Positions 2,508 to 64,000 of a stretch of 64,000 nt of DNA are shown one piece after another. Each line of letters begins with the position of its first letter. Position 1 is the first letter of the stretch. This DNA is from Ehretia macrophylla (taxonomy: Eukaryota > Streptophyta > Magnoliopsida > Boraginales > Ehretiaceae), in contig CM075773.1 in NCBI GenBank assembly GCA_037974665.1, forward strand, positions 35,321,080-35,385,079, given 5' to 3'. The notes beneath the pieces were generated by a model, which did not search any database, was not told where the DNA came from, and saw nothing but the letters and a program-made list of their open reading frames with translations. The translations under genes were made by a program, and so were the position numbers.

Positions 2508-4489
2508 AAATAGAGAATTTCTATAAATAAGTAAATAGCTCCAAAAGACTAATTTGTGAGTTTAGAAGTGGAAACTAACATGTTTGACCCATTTCTTAAA
2601 GAGTTTTTAAGTAAAAGCAAAAGTTAAAAAAAATTAAAAAAATAAGAAGCTCCACATTGGAGTATTTTAAAAAAGGCTTTTACAAAACTGTTTTTACATA
2701 ATGCGGGAATTTATTGAAAGTATAACGTTGCCTTCAAAATTTTTAAAAGAACAATATTATCCAACATAGGTTAAATAGTCAACAACTTTCTAAGAAAAAC
2801 TCTATTGTTGAAAGTTTTACAGCTCAAAAACTAAAATTTCACAATTAGGTCAAACATAATCTAAATGTAGACAAAAATGTAAGAAAATTATTGAAGTTGA
2901 TCTAACAACAATGACATGACATGATCCACGAGATGATCTATTAGTGGAATGTCTGGGATGTATTGAGAAATTTATTCATGTCTTAAGTTTGAATTATTAG
3001 TTTTCTTTGTACTAGTTTTCCTTGAAAAAGAATCACATATCAACAAGTTTAACATCAATGATGATTTTGACAAAAAAAAAAACATTGATGATGATGAGTG
3101 AATGCAAAAGTTTTATTAGGAAGAGTTCTCTTTTATTCTGTTTTTTCAAAAGCGAGAAGAAAACGATGATGTCATACATCTCAAGAAAAATAGAAGTTAT
3201 TTTTCACAAAAAAATTAATTAATTAAGATATATATGTTTTTCATTTCAATTTATTTTTAGATTATTTCAACTATAAATAGTTTTATCAATTGCATTCAAA
3301 AACAATGTTTCAGCTTAATTTAAATCATGACACACACGCCCGTAGTAAAACATACAAAATTAAATATGTGATTTATCACGTACTTATAATAAGTTTTTGT
3401 ACCTTTTTAAGTGTATAATTCCTTCTCGTATATGAACTCACTACAACTATTTAGTTCTTTTATAATACTCCAATTGAAAATAAAAAATTCGTTACAATAA
3501 GTTTCTTAATACAAATGTTTTTTAATAATTGCAATGGTTTTTTAAATTATTGTTTAGTATTAATTTACAAAAAAAAAAATCATTGTAGTTCAAAATTTGC
3601 AACGAATTATATGCAATGGTTACCGTTATTTGCAATAATTTTTAACCTTTTTGCAATAATTTTAAGTGTTGCAACAAATAAAACAAATATAATAGTGACT
3701 AGAATGCTAATTTCCGCATTTTATTTCTATACAAGGTGGTATAGTATAAATATCTTATTGAGACTAAATAAATGTGTTGCATTATGTAATTGTCAATGCG
3801 GAAGTAAATATATTTCATTATGGAATTGTGTAAGAAACCATGGGGTTCTTGAAGAGAGAGAGAGAGAGAGAGAGAGCTCTCAATGTAAATTTAGTATAAT
3901 ATTTCTACTTGGAAAAAAAGTGTTACAGTTGTGAGCTTTGATGTTAGGAGATCTCGTCGTTGGTTGTTCAGACCAGTGTGGTAGTTGCATCGCTAAGCAG
4001 TGATCGTTGGCCCTTGCCTCTTTTGGGCGACCGACACATCCTACTTTAGGGTCAATTGAAGAAATATTCAGTCTCACTCACTCTAATTTTTTTTATAAAT
4101 ATGTGTACTATAAATTTATTTCTAATTTAAAAAATTAATTTAACTTTTACCAAAAAAAATTACTTATATATGAATATTAAATAGTATATATTAATATTCA
4201 CTCAATGAGAAATCCTGATCCGCCCCTATTTTAAGATTAAGGTTACCATGTCCTTGTTGGGCTCTTGGGATTGGGTTTTGGCCCCTTTGTCTTTTGCATT
4301 GGGTCTGGCCCATTGTTAGTTGGTTTATGTGGTCCTCTATCCGCTGTATCTTTTATTTTTTATCTTGTTTTATAGCAATTTCTATTTGGATATTGTGTTC
4401 ATACAAGTTTACTGGTTTCTGTTACCAAATTTGTTGGTTTCTATTACCAAATTGAAAAGTGGTCAACCTGCAACTTTTCCTATGCGGGC
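2508..4489. other. Intergenic, AT-rich; (GA)n microsatellite
   Basis: No gene is recognised. The longest open frame (about 3515-3934) is low-complexity and reads through a (GA)n tract at about 3855-3876, so it is not credible as a protein. Confidence 0.6.
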
Positions 4490-4740
4490 CGACTCCGAAT
4501 TGTTAAGTCAATTCTTGGCAATATTCACTCTTTCTGGGCTTGTATGTTTATTCTCTCCAAAGGATGTCTCAAGGCTATTGAACAGGTGTTTGCTTCTTTT
4601 CTTTGGTCCAGTTCAGACAATCTTGGGAAGAAAGTAAAAGTCGCTTGGAGCTAAGTTTGTAAAAGCAAAGATGAGGACAGACTGGGTCTTTCCAGGCTTC
4701 AAGATACTAATCAATCAACTATCTTGAGGTATCTATATTA
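4490..4740 (+). pseudogene. LINE (L1-type) reverse-transcriptase C-terminal fragment
   Basis: One frame reads IVKSILGNIHSFW, then LSKGCLKAIEQVFASFLW, KVKVAW, a stop, and then RLGLSRLQDTN. This is the conserved segment that follows the catalytic palm in plant L1-type LINEs. Both the 5' catalytic domain and the 3' end are missing, and the frame contains a stop. The same segment appears in longer form at about 14730-14960. Confidence 0.75.
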
Positions 4741-6561: not shown

Positions 6562-6793
6562 TAAAAAAAATAAGAGCGGATATATTATCACATGGCAGGG
6601 AATATCAATGTTTATTATGTAGAATATAATATTATCTATTGCAACACTTAAAACTGATAAATGTCTTTAACCGTTGAGTATGACTTGCTGCAATACTAAG
6701 CAATGGTTTTAAACAACTGTAATTAAATAAAAAGTTGATGTTTGTGGAAGAAGTTTGTAGCAGGTGCGTTAGGTATGCGAACCTTCATCTCTG

Positions 6794-6943
6794 TAACCCA
6801 TAGTGGATTAGCGGCAGCGGCGCACCTTGATAAATTGTGAGAGTAGAGACTTAGAAACCACCTACCTTTAACCCATAGTGGATTAGCGGCAGCGGCGCAC
6901 CTTGATAAATTGTGAGAGTAGAGACTTAGAAACCACCTACCTT
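6794..6943. repeat. Exact 75-bp tandem duplication
   Basis: The 75-bp unit starting TAACCCATAGTGGATTAGCG occurs at 6794-6868 and again, base for base as far as read, at 6869-6943. It includes GCGGCAGCGGCGCACC, which is unusually GC-rich for this stretch. No function is recognised. Confidence 0.9.
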
Positions 6944-7430
6944 TATAAACTAGCATTCTTACATTCACATCCAACCATTTTAATATCCCGCTTGATCACA
7001 AACTCACGCTATTGAGCTCAACAATTGTTGGTTGTTATGTAACTTATTATAAATAAGTACTTTTCCTAATAGGTTTTCCATGTGGGAGAAAATATTACTT
7101 TATCCAAATTATTAACAATAGAAGTGTATTATTTCTGCTGCGAGTAAGACCATTACTTGCCAAAAAAGCCATTAATTGCCAAACAAGTTCCTTATTTACG
7201 TTGTTTTAAATTTTATCCATTAATCATATATACCTCAAGCTTACTATTTACGGTAGTTTACAAACTCTTTGTCTTACCCAAATTTATTGAATTCATTCAG
7301 TGAATAGAAATTTTATGATGCAATAATGTGCCCTAACACAATATTTCATTCAAATGTTATGAATCTCATAGTACAATTGTGCACTTTAATGTATACTCTA
7401 AATTAATTAAAAGCCAAATAATATTTATCA

Positions 7431-7777
7431 GGAAAATATTGCAAATGGTCTTATTATTTTTTCAAAATTTTAAATTCATCTTCTTCTTTTTTTCAAAATT
7501 AGTCAATTTAGACCTTATAGTTTTTTAACAAATTTTAAATTCGTTGTTATTATTCAAAATTAACCAATTTAGTTCCTATTGTTTTCCATAAAGTTTTAAT
7601 CTAGTCCCCAAATAGAAGACATCGTGCAGGGGCTAAATTAATTTTTTTTATAAATTACAATAAGAATGAATTTGATTTTTTTTGAGAAATAATAAGGTCT
7701 AAATTAATTAATTTTAAATGATAAAGATGAATTTAAAATTTTGATAAAATAATAGAGAATATTTGTATAATTTTACC
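7431..7777. mobile_element. Inverted-repeat MITE, AT-rich
   Basis: The left arm (GGAAAATATTGC … TTCAAAATTTTAAATTCATC) is mirrored by the right arm (GATGAATTTAAAATTTTGA … ATTTTACC). The internal phrase 'TTAGTTCCTATTG / TAGTCCCC' resembles the MULE-type arms elsewhere in the window. No clear target duplication was found, so the superfamily is uncertain. Confidence 0.55.
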
Positions 7778-8049
7778 TTATTGCAAGAAAAATCAGATTC
7801 AAAATTTGAGACCTTTTTCTATCCCATGCACTCAATAAAGTGCATCATTAATTACCGGACTACTCGCACTACATATTTAATAAAATGCTTATCAAGTGCG
7901 ATCGCAACAAGAAGCATCAATAAAGTCACCGTGGCTAATTGTTTATGTTATACAGATCTAGAATATTATTTTTATTTTTATTTTTTCCTGGAATATGGAT
8001 CTAGATTGAAATGACAAGATCACAAGCATAAGGTGCTTCTTGCAGACCT

Positions 8050-57315: not shown

Positions 57316-58260
57316 ATTTAAAAACTGTACTATCTATGAGGTAGAGATAGAGGAAGAGGTAAGAACTGAAGATTTTGACTCCACTTATAGATAAAGATAT
57401 GAGGGGTGGTAAATCTCATAGAATAATTGTTGTTTAACGTGTTTTGCCTCCCTAAAAAAAAAAAAAAAAAACACAAAGTTTTGTGTCCTATTTACATGAC
57501 TATCTTCATGTTTGTAGTCATAAGATGTTGAGGCCCATATTCAATTGTCTTGAGAAATCCATTAAAGTTTTCCTTCTTATTTTTATAATTAACTTAAAAC
57601 AGTACTGGCTAATATATTCGTCGTTTCTTCGTAAAATATACTTACAACAGCGTTATATGGCAACAAAATTACTTAGGAAACCATCTTTCAGATAATACAA
57701 ATCCAGTTTCTTGACAGAGTTTGTCTATTAATTAAGTGTTTGATATACCAAACATTAAGTAGACGACGATGATGTTTTCCGCAGATTCTGCCAATTTGTC
57801 TTCCCAGCACCACGCAGGGATCTAAAGTACACAATAAATTTTTAAACAAATGAAAAACATAATATAAGAATTAATATATCAACACACGGGTGCATATAAT
57901 TGATTTACAGTGTTGGTAATCGAGCTCTGCGAGTTGGGTTTCACGTCATCCAAGGAAAATTAATTTACAGTGTTTGATGATTGATAAGATAACGTCTAAC
58001 CTGCCAGATCAACACACAAAAACTGAAGTCATTCTAAGTCATTAGTGAGCTAATTAACAGATTTAGTTAAAGGCTCAAGTTAGCTAAGTATACAAGAGTT
58101 ATAGGAAGTGGAAGCTAGCAATAAATTGATTGTAGATAGCACGTGTGTAAAATCCACTACTATAATTAGTAGCTCGTGTATCAAAATCAGTAATGAAAAT
58201 CACATAAAAGACCTCACCGTCTTATCGATCTCATTTTTCTCTCTTCTGCCATTTTTTTTT
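57316..58260. other. Intergenic, with a possible Copia 5' LTR at about 57971-58250
   Basis: TGTTTGATGATTGATAAGAT at 57971 to CTTCTGCCA near 58251 has LTR-like composition and lies ahead of the gag at 63232, separated from it by the CACTA element. No primer-binding site was found and no second LTR is in the window, so this is weak. No gene is recognised. Confidence 0.3.
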
Positions 58261-58289
58261 CACTACAAAAAAAACTGAATTTTGTGAGA

Positions 58290-58860
58290 GACAGTTCCCC
58301 TCACCGTGCCGTTGCCAATTTGGAATTTGCGACGGCACGGTGAGGGGAAACGTCCGTCAGACACGAGGTGGTCGCCAAAATCTTGCCCCTCACAAAGTCG
58401 TCACCGTATTGCGACGGCTCGTCACCAGGCCGTTACCAATGATTGCCTTCACCGAGCCCTCGCCAATCTTTCCCCTCGCCAACTTAACCCATCACCAGAC
58501 CGTCACCAATGATTGCCGTCACCGAGCCCTCGCCAATCTTTCCCATCACTAAACCCTCGCTAACTTAACCCGTCACCAAGCTGTCACTAATCTTTCCCGT
58601 CCCTAGGCCATTACCAATGATAGTCGTCACTGAGCCCTCGCCAATCTTTCCCCTCACTAAGCCCTCGCCAACTTAACCCGTCACCAAGCTGTCACTAATC
58701 TTTCTCGTCCTCAGGCCGTCACCAATGATAGTCGTCACTGAGCCCTCACCAATCTTTCCCCTCACTAAGCCCTCCCCAACTTAACCTGTCACCAAGCCTT
58801 TGCCAACTTAACCAGTCACCAAGCCCTCACCAAAATTGTCGTCGCCAAGTCCTAGCCATT
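58290..58860. repeat. CACTA left subterminal repeats
   Basis: Variable-spaced copies of CGTCACCAATGATTG, GAGCCCTCGCCAATCTTTCC and CGCCAACTTAACCCGTCACC form a C-rich array. Such arrays bind the transposase in characterised CACTA elements. Spacing is irregular and the units degenerate, so this is not a CRISPR array. Confidence 0.85.
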
Positions 58861-58869
58861 CTCCAAGAA

Positions 58870-60790
58870 TCAACCTGCAAATCTCATTACTACCATCGAC
58901 TAGTACAATTCTTCACTTCTGCATTTAGCAGTATATGTATATTGTGTGGACACACTTATGTACAATTGCAGTTTTAAACTGGATGCCTTCAAGCATTTTT
59001 GGCACCTGCAGTAGATCCATTATTTTTTTTTTCTCTCCTTCACTTTAAACAACAACTTGAGTTCAATATGTACGAATAAAAAAACAATAAACTGTGTGTG
59101 AGATTACATAGAACTACCCCTTCAAAAGAGAGGACAAGGAAGATTACCATACCAGGTTGGGGAGAAGATCAACCCAACTTGGTCAATTCTCCACTCAATT
59201 CCCTTTTGACTAGCTGAAGAATCTCAATTTCCTGCAACAAGGAAAAGAGATGAATAGGAAAGAGATATTCACAATCATTTGTTGAGCATATAAAAGAAAA
59301 TATAAGTTCTTAATGAGAAAATCTGTAAAAATTTCTATGGGTATTCCACTGTTCTACATAGCATGTAAATAAGAAAGTTTGGAACAATCACTTTGTTTTC
59401 TTATTTGGTAATTTCTAGAACAATCAAAGAACTAAAAACATAGAATGTAATTGAAGTTATTGAAAGCATTGAATATGATTTATGAAGATTTAACAAGCCA
59501 TAAATATCATTATAACCTGCTTTTATTGTAAACATTGTGGATTTCTAGTGACCTAAGGATTAAACAAAAACAAAACCTATATGCCTCAAGTTGTTGAAAG
59601 ATTGTATGCAGTGAAGATGAGATCTAGATGCCATTTTATGCAAAACTATCAAGCTTTCGATTCTCTACTTGTAAATTGTTTCAGTTTGCTCTTGGTCATG
59701 AAAAAGCAAATAGTCATCTCGAATCAATCACTATATCTTTTGTCTTACTATCTAATACTTGTTCAAAAGCTTATTACATTAACAGAATGATGATACTGAC
59801 GTGCATGACCAGAGCACTTTCACTTTACTTTTTTGTCATTGATGAACAATTTATTACATGAATCAGAAGGCAACTGCAACTAATTTCAAATACGTGCTCT
59901 ACTAAAGTAAGCAACTTTTATGATATTTTGGTTTGAGAATGTGGGAATTTAGGCTCTTAACCACTTTTATTTATCAATTTGGAAATGGATGCAGTTTTAT
60001 CAACAAGAATCTGTGACATTATGCTCATACTCATAAACTATAAAACTCTGTAAACTAAAACTCTGATAAAACTCTGTAATTATGTGTATATCTGTTCTAA
60101 TCCCCTAATTTCGATTAGCATGAAATTACTGATAAAACTCTGTAATTATATGTATATCTGTTTTATATAATTGCATGTATATCTGTTCTATGTCCATATA
60201 ACTACTTCTATCGGATTTGAACATAATAATATTTTTTCAAGTAAACTAAATTCAACTCATAAGCAATTCAATTCACATATAGGCTAATAACAAGTTCATA
60301 ATTCACAATTCACAAAAATTCAAAGGAAAAAAAATCAAAAAGTTAAGAACTTTATACTCAAAAACCAAAAAGAAGATCTATAAACAGTCAACTAGCTCAA
60401 TTATCAACTCAAAAAGCTAAAATTTCACACCTATGCATAACACTTAATTATATATCCTAGCAAAAAAACACTTAATTATATATAAATAAATTTGCTACTC
60501 AATTATCCATTAATTACTAGCTAAAACATCTATAAATAGTGAATTATAATATGATATAATATTTGTAAATATTAGTGTGTGTGTGTGTGTGTGTAGAGAA
60601 GCCATCTAAACACAAGAATAGCAATACAATCAGTGAACTCCATTTGCATATCCACTTAAATAGATAAAAACTTGAAATTAACCAATAAAACAAAATTGTA
60701 ATAAGTATTTCACAAAATCGCTACACATATTCATGAAAAAAAAATCTATTAAACAAATAATAAAGCAAAATGAAGCCACAAAAGCCTTAC
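58870..60790. other. CACTA interior, left half
   Basis: AT-rich, with a (GT)n tract at about 60575-60592. Minus strand 59232-59170 has an acceptor-like TTCCTTGTTGCAG followed by a short open stretch EIEILQLVKRELSGELTKLG and a stop, which could be a last-exon scrap of an unidentified gene. Nothing resembling transposase was recognised. Confidence 0.5.
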
Positions 60791-61925
60791 TGCAGGGGCT
60801 GAGCTGCAAATTGAGCGAAATATTGCTTGCACTGGTTTGCAGAAGTTGTAACATCTTCACTTTGGAAAAGGTCAGCAGCCTTTTCATAATAAACAATAGC
60901 TTGCTCCAAATTTTGTTCTTGCCACATAGTTCAACAATTTCCTGAAAAGTAGTAAAGCAAATAATACTTTCTTAGTGATTTTCAACATGCCCTCATTCAA
61001 TGTAAATAAATCAAGGTTTAGCTGATGTGGGTATCAAGATAATGCTCCTGCATCAGTACAACAATCTACAAGTTCTAATGAGTAAATTATGAATACAACT
61101 TCCAAGATCACAGGAAAATAAGTGCAGAACTTATGAGTAAAGTACAACATTGTATATGAGTAATTATTTGAATGTTATACCTTATAGTACCTTGCTAACA
61201 TGTTGAGCTGTCCAATTTCTAGAAACAAATTTACCGATTGCTCCAAGCAAGATATTGCCTCCACATATCATCAATTTTTCAAAAAAAAAGAAAAGACAAG
61301 AAAAAAGAAAATTAGAATAGAGAAATACATATTTTTAGGTAAGTTTTATGCCTGTAGTTTTGTATATGTACATGAATAATAGAAATAACATTAGCCTTCA
61401 TACAACTGGTGAAAAAATGACTCTGTTTCAATAGTAACTCCAATCACAACACAAATAGGGAAGACACATAAGGGATAAAGAATTGCACCTCCTTACTTCA
61501 TTTATACGAACAAACCCTTAAAACTTCTCAAATTGTATCGAAAGACTACTTAATTTAGCTCCTTCATATCTTCCTTCCTTAGCCTTCATACAACTGTCGA
61601 TCATTCTCATTCATCAAATTATTGATCAATATCAATAATTAATTTTCGAATTACCATCAAGAAAAACCCTAGCAATAGCATTAATTTTATTTTTAAAAAA
61701 TCTGATTTTTGAATCGAATAAAGAAAAGTTAACAAACAATTAAGTGAGAAGGGTAGAGTGAGGGATTAAAATGTGAATACAAGATTTGGCGAGCTTGAAG
61801 GAATTGGCGGCTTTGTCGTATAAATCGGCGGCGTCTTCGTATTTGGAGCCAAAAAGTCCTGAGCTTTGAAGCTTATTCTCGGCTTTCTTCTCAAAATCTT
61901 CTCTTCTCGCTACGTACTCTCCCAT
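60791..61925 (-). pseudogene. Captured alpha-SNAP fragment (three exons with introns)
   Basis: alpha-SNAP recruits NSF to SNARE complexes for disassembly. Exon 1 at 61925-61781 encodes [18 protein letters not shown], then [20 protein letters not shown] and KLAKS, ending at a GT. A 78-bp exon at 61259-61182 reads [19 protein letters not shown] plus MLARYYK with AG and GT borders. A third at 60941-60791 reads EIVEL, then after a one-base frame break [18 protein letters not shown] and VTTSANQCK, and ends at a GTAAGG donor. The roughly 40 residues expected between exons 1 and 2 and the whole C-terminal half are absent. It lies wholly inside the CACTA. It cannot make a full alpha-SNAP. Confidence 0.88.
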
Positions 61926-62189
61926 TTTCTTCTCCTTTTTTTTTTCTTTGCCTTCACGCGGATGGTTTAAGGGAACAAAGATGCAGTGGCGATATCGAGA
62001 AAACAAACAAACTGATTTTTGTTTTGACCACGTCTACCAGCTAATTTAATATTAATATATTAAATTGAAACAAAAAACAGAAAATTAAACATATATAAAA
62101 ATATTGTATATAATGTATGTAGATGTATGTAAAAATATGTATAAATATAGATACATATACATAAACTTATATATATACACACATATACC

Positions 62190-62345
62190 GCGCGAGAGAA
62201 GGGTGGCCGTTGTGGTTGTGGTGTTGGTTCGCGGAGTGGTGGTGGTGCTGCTTCCGCAGGGGTGGGGAATGGGATAGGGGGTGGGAGGCTGTGGGGGAGA
62301 GGGTGCGGTGGAGGATTGCAGGGGGCGTGGGTGGGGGTTTTGTTT
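62190..62345. other. GC-rich segment in the CACTA right half
   Basis: A G-rich plus strand (C-rich minus strand) of about 150 bp stands out in AT-rich surroundings. The minus-strand frame is Pro/Thr/His-rich (TKPPPTPPAILHRTL, HHHHSANQHHNHNGH) without a recognised domain. It may be a second captured host fragment. Confidence 0.45.
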
Positions 62346-62869
62346 TTGAAATTGGATCAGCCCCAATAGGGCTGAAGTCCTTTATTTTAATTTTTTTTAA
62401 AAAAAAAAAAAAATTGGTGGAGACGGGCCATGCAGGTCTGTCCGCAAAATTGGTGACGGACCTGTTGGCCCGTCCCAAAATTTTGAGAGGGACTATACAG
62501 GACCGTTTCCAAATTTTTTTTAGAATTTTTTTTAACAGATTTTCTTTCAAATTTTTTTTAAAAAAAATTATACTAAAAAAATAAAAATTTTAAAAAATAT
62601 TTTAAAAATTTTTTGAAACAATTTTTTCAAAAAAATTATATTACAATATTAGATATAAAATTAAATTTTTTTTATTCAGTTGTTTTAAATAATTTTTGTA
62701 AACAATAATTTATTTATGTATTATTATACTTTTTTATTAATAATTTTTTTAGAAATTATATTTTTATACCTTATTAGCTTTATATTATTAATAATATTTT
62801 TAGAAAAAAATTTATAGGTTTTTTATGTATACAAAAATTTTAATTTGGTGACAGACCAAAATTTTCATC

Positions 62870-63190
62870 ACCAAGAAATAATTGTTCATCACTAACCCGT
62901 CTCCAAAATTGGAGACGGCAAGGAGACGACATAGTATACTGTTTCCAATTTTGGAGACGGCGAGAAGAAGGCATAGTATGCCGTCTCCAATTTTGGAGAC
63001 AGGAGGGCCTCCCGTCTCCAATTTTGGAGACGGCAAAGTATGCTGTCACTGTTAGTGACGGCTTGGTGATAGTTTTTTTCATCTCATACTATGCCGTCAC
63101 TGTCCTGTCACAAAATTAGCGTAAACATTTCCCATCACCAAACTGTCGCCGTATTGGTGACGGGATGGCGATGGCCTGTCGCAAAATCCA
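62870..63190. repeat. CACTA right subterminal repeats
   Basis: At least four copies of the near-palindrome TCTCCAATTTTGGAGAC, plus TTGGTGACGG and CCGTCACTG words, lie just inside the right terminus. They mirror the C-rich repeats at the left end. Confidence 0.85.
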
Positions 63191-63231
63191 ATTTTTTTTG
63201 TAGTGTTTTTTCGAGCTTCAAGCTCTCAACA

Positions 63232-64000
63232 ATGGCGGATGATGCAGAGCTACCTTCTAATTTGAAGCTCCTCATTCAAAATTCGAGCTCACTTGTTCGC
63301 GTACAACTCGACAACACCAATTACATTGTTTGGCGTGCTCCATTGCAACGCATCCTCAAGGCAAATCGGCTTCTTGATCATGTTACTGGTTTACAGCCAT
63401 GTCCGCCGCCAAAAATTAAGCAAGCTGACGGAACGGTTGAGCTGAATCCAGAATATGATCAGTGGATGATCATCAATCAACATCTACAATCGTGTCTACG
63501 TGCATTGATTTCTTCTCTGGTGCTACTATAAATTCTCCATCTTTCAAGTTCTATTGAGATCTGGACTGTTCTTGAGGAGTGATTCCAATCGCTTTCTCAA
63601 CCTCATCTTTATCAATTGAAGATAAAACTTTACACACTTACAAAAGGATCACAAAGCATGCAGTATTATCTTGACCAGGTCAAAGCCTTAACAGATAGTC
63701 TTGCGAGTGTATCTACAAACATTGATGAAGATGATCTTGTTCTGTATATTCTCAAAGGCCTTCTATCAGATTATGAATCTATTCGTTCATCTATTCGTGT
63801 TTGTAAAGATCAAGTCACTGTTTCTGAGTTGTCTAGCTTACTTCTTTCAGAAAAGCTCTATCTTCAATCTCTTAAGCCTCTAGTTGGTAATGATGCTACT
63901 TCTGGCGAGCTTCATACTGCCTTGAATGCACAGCGCAACTCTCATTATAATTCACAAAGAGGCAAAGGTCGTAATTTTAATAACAGAGGTGGAAGAGGTA
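63232..64000 (+). pseudogene. Copia gag (UBN2 domain), mutated, runs off the window
   Basis: Starts MADDAELPSNLKLLIQNSSS. The family motifs VQLDNTNYIVWRAPLQRILK, LDHVTG, YDQWMIINQHLQSCLRALIS, QYYLDQVKALTDSLASV, DEDDLVLYILKGLLSDYES, SELSSLLLSEKLYLQ and a Gly/Arg/Asn-rich end are all in one frame. Two in-frame stops (TAA at 63529, TGA at 63580) break it. This is the capsid-domain start of a Copia polyprotein; the zinc knuckle and pol lie beyond 64000. The CACTA right end is only 26 bp upstream of the ATG, so its leader has been disrupted. Confidence 0.88.

Follow-up and report, generated by a model that had tools for sequence, protein, structure and literature searches.

A Pack-CACTA element of Ehretia macrophylla with alpha-SNAP gene DNA, and sister elements with other host genes

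Introduction

The Pack-MULEs of rice are non-autonomous elements that amplify host gene fragments; they belong to another superfamily than the element described here, and have other ends and another target-duplication length. Among the CACTA elements, Pack-CACTA elements that hold DNA from several loci are established (PMC8903248, in its sections on Pack-TYPE capture), and exons and introns borne by a CACTA element can be spliced into chimeric transcripts, as the relevant part of the work on Tgm-Express1 of soybean describes (PMC1947982). A tandem-insertion model of capture is set out in a passage of a recent review (PMC13317346). Here we analyse a window of 64,000 nucleotides from Ehretia macrophylla (C10:35321080-35385079), in which positions 58261-63205 form a single 4,945-bp CACTA-type element. 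At a probability of roughly 0.93, this appears to be a non-autonomous Pack-CACTA element whose alpha-SNAP DNA was copied, introns included, from a gene on C18 and then spread.

Results

The element and its alpha-SNAP content

The searched genome is a single assembly of 1.58 Gb in 20 contigs. The element is bounded by a 30-nt terminal inverted repeat (58261-58290 against 63176-63205, 87% complementary; CACTACAA...TTGTAGTG). As is characteristic of the CACTA (En/Spm) superfamily, both ends start with CACTA and direct and inverted subterminal repeats lie inside them, the left array having a 27-nt period and the right consisting of inverted units. The flanking 3-mers, TTT and TTT, lie within poly-T and are weak evidence alone. 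The boundaries are real despite this, because three related retrotransposon leaders (L057-L059, fetched from 39 other places listed) carry both flanks contiguously, without the element; the right-flank search behind this comparison scored the best 40 of 76 candidates, the window among the 40. The element is inserted into the leader of a long terminal repeat (LTR) retrotransposon, whose family and gag-like frame were read by eye. Immediately left of the element, at 58198-58201, the interrupted leader is about 40 bases shorter than those of L057-L059.

Between the ends lie three minus-strand pieces of alpha-SNAP, which alignment to the C18 gene identifies as exon 1 (61925-61781, 93%, E 2e-59), exon 4 (61260-61181, 94%, E 7e-31) and exon 5 (BLAST match 60941-60800, 92%, E 2e-55); the Pfam SNAP profile matches exon 1 of the window at E 4e-10. 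For exons 2, 3, 6, 7 and 8 of the donor, the window gives only short matches of the kind expected by chance (best E 0.038). The SNAP DNA starts shortly before the ATG and extends into intron 5; its order is that of the gene, and it reads in sense from the right end of the element. Intron DNA, from parts of introns 1, 3, 4 and 5, is present as well and colinear with the donor: the window matches L013, the C18 locus, at 3756-4180 and 4345-4493 (leader, exon 1 and parts of intron 1), and at 6613-7216 (intron 3 end to intron 5 start) and 7742-7860 (intron 5), in a range of 82-93%. Capture by way of a cDNA was rejected on account of these introns.

Where did this DNA come from? A genome search with PF14938 gave 32 matches, all at three genes (on C6, C18 and C8) or at copies of the element. 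The donor is an apparently intact alpha-SNAP gene on C18; it has at least eight exons, and the eight traced from its start give a single open frame of 263 residues. The C6 gene was rejected as donor, since its match is 73% in the exon 4-5 region and 87% in exon 1, and so was the C8 gene, at 74% and over exon 1 only, the C18 gene matching at its higher range over a longer stretch than either.

The initial annotation had read this part of the window as a CACTA element with exon-intron pieces of alpha-SNAP, and the ends, the donor match and the uninterrupted retrotransposon sites bear this out. Its three minus-strand segments in gene order are exons 1, 4 and 5, and the frame break that it saw in the third is a 1-nt deletion in exon 5. 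Its capture from genomic DNA agrees with a donor whose introns are colinear, in one early copy (L012, below) still through intron 5. The statement that splice borders are kept holds for GT or AG at four of five borders; the exon-4 acceptor is ATGTGG here, where the donor has ATGCAG. Its decay by loss of exons and a broken frame also stands, with the additions that exons 2 and 3 went in one 2.1-kb gap and that the frame break is ancestral.

The features are as follows, by window position.

58121-58260, plus strand: left flank, leader of the interrupted LTR retrotransposon (comparison with L057-L059)
58258-58260, no strand: left copy of the target-site duplication, TTT in a poly-T run (flanks; uninterrupted sites in L057-L059)
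58261-58290, plus strand: left terminal inverted repeat, CACTACAA... (complementarity to 63176-63205)
58291-58851, plus strand: left subterminal repeat array (direct repeats D1-D3)
58852-58970, minus strand: alpha-SNAP intron 5 remnant (L013 7742-7860, 93%)
58971-60779, minus strand: second acquired segment, 'gene X' (similarity to L035 and L034; gene identity tentative)
60791-60941, minus strand: alpha-SNAP exon 5 with the frame-breaking 1-nt deletion (BLAST to 60800; 60791 set by the splice site)
60942-61180, minus strand: alpha-SNAP intron 4 (comparison with donor)
61181-61260, minus strand: alpha-SNAP exon 4, acceptor AG lost here (comparison with donor)
61261-61780, minus strand: fused intron, intron 3 end plus intron 1 parts (L013 4493-6613, with exons 2 and 3, missing)
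61781-61925, minus strand: alpha-SNAP exon 1 with ATG and 5' splice site (donor match, Pfam SNAP)
61926-62048, minus strand: alpha-SNAP 5' leader and promoter-proximal DNA (L013 3756-3876)
62049-62302, minus strand: element-native spacer (by eye, also in L041, L043, L044, L050 and L056 with other contents)
62303-63175, minus strand: right-end module, namely a GC-rich motif, an AT-rich stretch and the right subterminal inverted units (common to sister elements)
63176-63205, minus strand: right terminal inverted repeat (inverted repeat with 58261-58290)
63206-63208, no strand: right copy of the target-site duplication, TTT (flanking 3-mers)
63206-63420, plus strand: right flank, remaining leader and start of the gag-like frame (frame and family by eye; flank search, L057-L059)

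The spacer at 62049-62302 was considered as a further host capture and rejected, since by eye the stretch recurs in elements with other contents. The segment at 58971-60779 adds to the earlier reading: it is a second acquired segment, and 58973-60035 is 95% like L035, an element without SNAP. Colinearity also links parts of the segment to L034, a C1 locus in which the corresponding strand has a TPR-like coding stretch. This stretch of L034 reaches 2.6e-5 against Pfam TPR_BSK1_C, below the family cut-off, and gene X was given no name; the last-exon-like peptide of the window's own segment has no Pfam match. At L034 2145-3604 about 1.5 kb is inserted between stretches that directly adjoin each other in the window element.

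Copies across the genome

The full SNAP structure is found at ten loci, which represent nine insertions (L009, L010 and L023-L030, the window being L030); L025 and L026 are one insertion within a duplicated stretch of about 9.9 kb, with its left end lost. The SNAP part also matches one split copy (L011 and L012), seven loci with exon 1 only (L014-L020) and the three genes. A change in exon 1, TGG to TCG or a form derived from it, is diagnostic of the full-structure loci as against the C18 and C6 genes. Flanking 3-mers match at seven of the eight full-structure loci that have both ends, and at L029 two of the three bases match; some ends and 3-mers had to be read by eye, a terminal base being mutated. 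The seven exon-1-only loci are five insertions, L017, L018 and L020 being duplicates of one, and all five have matching 3-mers, L014 and L019 only when mutations in the terminal bases are tolerated. These dispersed copies with shared captured DNA and 3-bp target duplications, as in CACTA elements, accord with the transduplication proposed at the outset. Elements occur with SNAP, as the full-structure and exon-1-only loci, and without it, as L035.

A Pack-CACTA element holds host gene DNA between its ends, with the donor elsewhere, and lacks a transposase gene. Such DNA and such a donor are found here, and the interior is assigned to ends, SNAP, the gene-X segment and spacer. No transposase-like frame was seen inside the element, where the longest stop-to-stop frame overlapping 58900-60800 has 97 codons and no dedicated transposase profile search was made. 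In the genome, matches to the transposase profile PF02992 are abundant (best 150 of 1891 candidates scored).

Sister elements with other host genes

The genome has 58 occurrences of a 32-nt motif from the right-end module, with at most three mismatches; a reversed control gave none. Sixteen occurrences are SNAP elements (ten full structure or L011, six exon-1-only) and one is L031; the pattern misses L010, L019 and L036. From 20 of the remaining 41 motif loci, 801 bases were fetched. Six copies of the module at C15:8349996-8793526 form a local series with the same mismatches, which suggests duplication.

Several of the fetched loci carry other genes. At L039:163-585 (C12:34541655-34542455) a seemingly complete RPS17 frame stands directly behind the module, with 141 codons open to the stop and a Ribosomal_S17e match of E 7e-55 over 140; RPS17 is also found in L049 (by Pfam) and in L052 (by similarity). 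L043 and L044 hold ubiquitin protease exons: two predicted L044 exons, translated and joined by eye, match USP47 at E 1.8e-6 and Pfam UCH at 0.013. L053 has content of the L033 type, and L038 has a weak SNF4-like exon (E 0.15). L041 and L050 contain what may be a cyclin-B-like first exon. No content was identified in the other fetched module loci. Among ten antisense and ten further sense open reading frames (ORFs) taken from L038-L056, none had a match that came near a Pfam cut-off.

The exon-1-only elements are composites, in which the equivalent of 61612-61989 is fused directly to the right-end module and exon 1 is joined to pieces of eRF3. Downstream of exon 1 comes a stretch 89% like L033 (also in L053), and further on come exons and introns of eRF3, for the most part 94-96% like those of L031 and L036, both of which carry RPS17 in front of their eRF3 part. 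An eRF3 gene on C7 (L032) matches at 70-88% in pieces. At C7:102761673-102761943, C19:25501499-25501757 and C6:64278109-64278380, three eRF3 stretches of this group stand side by side, exon-like, as in processed retrocopies. Eight copies of a stretch shared with the exon-1-only elements lie 23-49 kb apart at C5:44528719-44744152, and L033 has CACTA right-end units beside this C5-type stretch.

Discussion

What steps lead from the donor gene to the present element? On C14, L011 and L012 lie about 20 kb from each other, and each matches the half of the element that the other lacks; we infer that an insert of that length has split a single element in two. L012 matches L013 at 6945-7642 and 7745-7895 and then enters the left array. 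Because L012 is colinear from donor intron 4 through intron 5, the capture was probably of one contiguous stretch of about 4.1 kb, a two-piece capture being less likely. Exons 2 and 3 are already gone from L011, as the 2.1 kb that contained them is from every copy, and L012 already has the exon-5 deletion, which occurs in all 11 loci that hold the exon-5 stretch and is therefore older than the amplification. In the order that we propose, the exon 2-3 gap and the exon-5 deletion would have arisen early; the 1.8-kb segment at 58971-60779 would then have replaced part of intron 5 in the window's group; and the element would have spread by transposase supplied in trans. Composite forms may have arisen by recombination, fusion or aberrant repair between family members.

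Some observations pull the other way. An autonomous partner with these ends was not found when the listed PF02992 matches were compared, by eye only, with the listed ends, which come from searches that scored the best 40 of 897 candidates for the left end (58261-58480) and the best 40 of 814 for the right. In a midpoint-rooted tree of the exon-1 region (17 rows, five dropped) the C6 gene falls outside, and most inner branches are weakly supported, one of 14 well. As for a partner, C20 has a PF02992 match about 10 kb from a left end of the family and on the same strand (C20:20676396-20677025 and C20:20687404-20687619), which is a candidate autonomous element.

Could the window instead hold a host alpha-SNAP gene broken in place by transposons, with CACTA ends contributed by other elements? 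Exons in gene order with introns between them are what such a gene would leave. Against this, exons 2, 3 and 6-8 are absent from the window, no further SNAP exon lying beyond the ends within it. Nor do the two ends belong to different elements: they enclose the same content at seven other loci, at sites with target duplications, and the flanks are one retrotransposon leader, contiguous in L057-L059. On these grounds the broken gene was rejected, and we regard it as scarcely credible. How a Pack-CACTA element took up the gene is a closer matter. Two nearby family members flanking the gene might have been mobilised as one unit and lost their inner ends, instead of gene DNA having served as filler in gap repair. 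We take tandem insertion to be an even bet: the captured DNA keeps colinearity and a single orientation, and the composite forms resemble fused elements, as described for Pack-TYPE elements of rice and maize in the capture sections of PMC8903248, yet gap repair would be just as likely to give a contiguous copy, the donor gene is still on C18, and by eye no remnant of an inner terminal repeat was seen at either SNAP junction.

Are the captured exons of any use? We read them as decaying without constraint, the exon-1-only group and exon 4 being weaker points that leave a little room for it. Pooled pN/pS is 1.36 within the ten full-structure copies. The captured copies differ from the donor by 6.2% in exon 1 and 6.5% at the start of intron 1, and (nine copies) by 9.8% in exon 5, 8.0% at the end of intron 3 and 5.6% in intron 4, so that the drift of exons 1 and 5 is close to that of introns; for the C18 gene against the C6 gene the figures are 7.7% for exon 5 and about 7.5% for exons 4 and 5, against 24% for intron 4 and 24-28% for introns. 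Decay without constraint is less comfortable with a captured exon 4 that differs from the donor by only 3.5%, below introns 3 and 4, with changes that cluster beside the gene-X junction and make up part of the exon-5 excess, with an exon 1 free of stops in eight of the ten full-structure copies, and with a pooled pN/pS of 0.48 in six exon-1-only copies. Purifying selection is unsupported in the main group, and the exon-1-only group leaves room for it. One might go further and suppose that the SNAP pieces are retained because they are active, either as a small peptide or by giving rise to small RNA that tunes the alpha-SNAP genes. The stop-free exon 1 and the low ratio could be read so, as could the keeping of exon 1, leader and 5' splice site in both element groups. 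We think this very improbable, given the ratio and drift in the main group and, at the exon-1-only loci, an ATG lost in three of seven and an in-frame stop in a fourth.

Were the element transcribed, with exon 1 spliced to exon 4, a 48-codon N-terminal peptide would remain. The joint keeps phase but creates a T|AG stop, as it likewise does with the donor's exons, and a product of this length is predicted in eight of nine copies examined, L025 stopping at 21. The exon-4 acceptor AG is kept in two of nine copies (L009 and L010) and not in seven. Antisense RNA is not predicted, the SNAP pieces being sense to the right-end module. A coding function for the captured exons seems improbable, and nothing in the data points to an effect on the alpha-SNAP genes themselves; a suggested bearing on nematode response found no support in anything analysed here.

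The more interesting part of the story is the family of sister elements rather than the single element of the window. The four donors with good matches (SNAP, RPS17, eRF3 and ubiquitin protease) are all sense from the right end, as are the two weak ones (SNF4-like and gene X), a pattern that is suggestive only, the sample being small, half of the loci read and sense ORFs favoured in attention. It is a tentative thought, and one we would sooner doubt than hold, that the right-end module is a fixed acceptor, which repeatedly takes up host genes at one place and in sense, often with 5' leader and first exon, and that sisters swap pieces, so making a mobile library of gene starts that could be transcribed as chimeras. 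Does the element's end dictate the place and direction of capture, or does selection on transcription keep the sense copies? The donor, an early colinear copy, a deleted form and recombinant forms coexist in one genome, so that steps of capture and reshuffling can be ordered.

How does the family compare with those described? In the Pack-CACTA and other Pack-TYPE elements of Arabidopsis, rice and maize, the orientation of captured genes is not discussed in the sections of PMC8903248 that cover Pack-TYPE capture; here the right-end module is a common one and the genes behind it vary among sister elements, those few that could be identified being in sense. Tgm-Express1, in the relevant part of PMC1947982, is alike in that this CACTA element of 5.7 kb bears exon and intron DNA from five host genes. 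It is unlike in that those genes are others and that the gene it occupies is expressed, as cDNAs show, whereas the window copy lies within a retrotransposon. The CACTA elements of Chenopodium, in the corresponding part of PMC8978399, also have host gene fragments captured towards one end; coding domains are kept there, and the window element differs in its lack of a visible transposase-like frame. Literature that brings CACTA and alpha-SNAP together came to a soybean trait review only, and we claim no wider absence from print. Capture of host genes by CACTA elements is a known kind of event, to which the window element belongs, because multi-locus Pack-CACTA elements and spliceable CACTA-borne exons are already established; what this genome offers is a donor, an intermediate and sister elements with other genes side by side.

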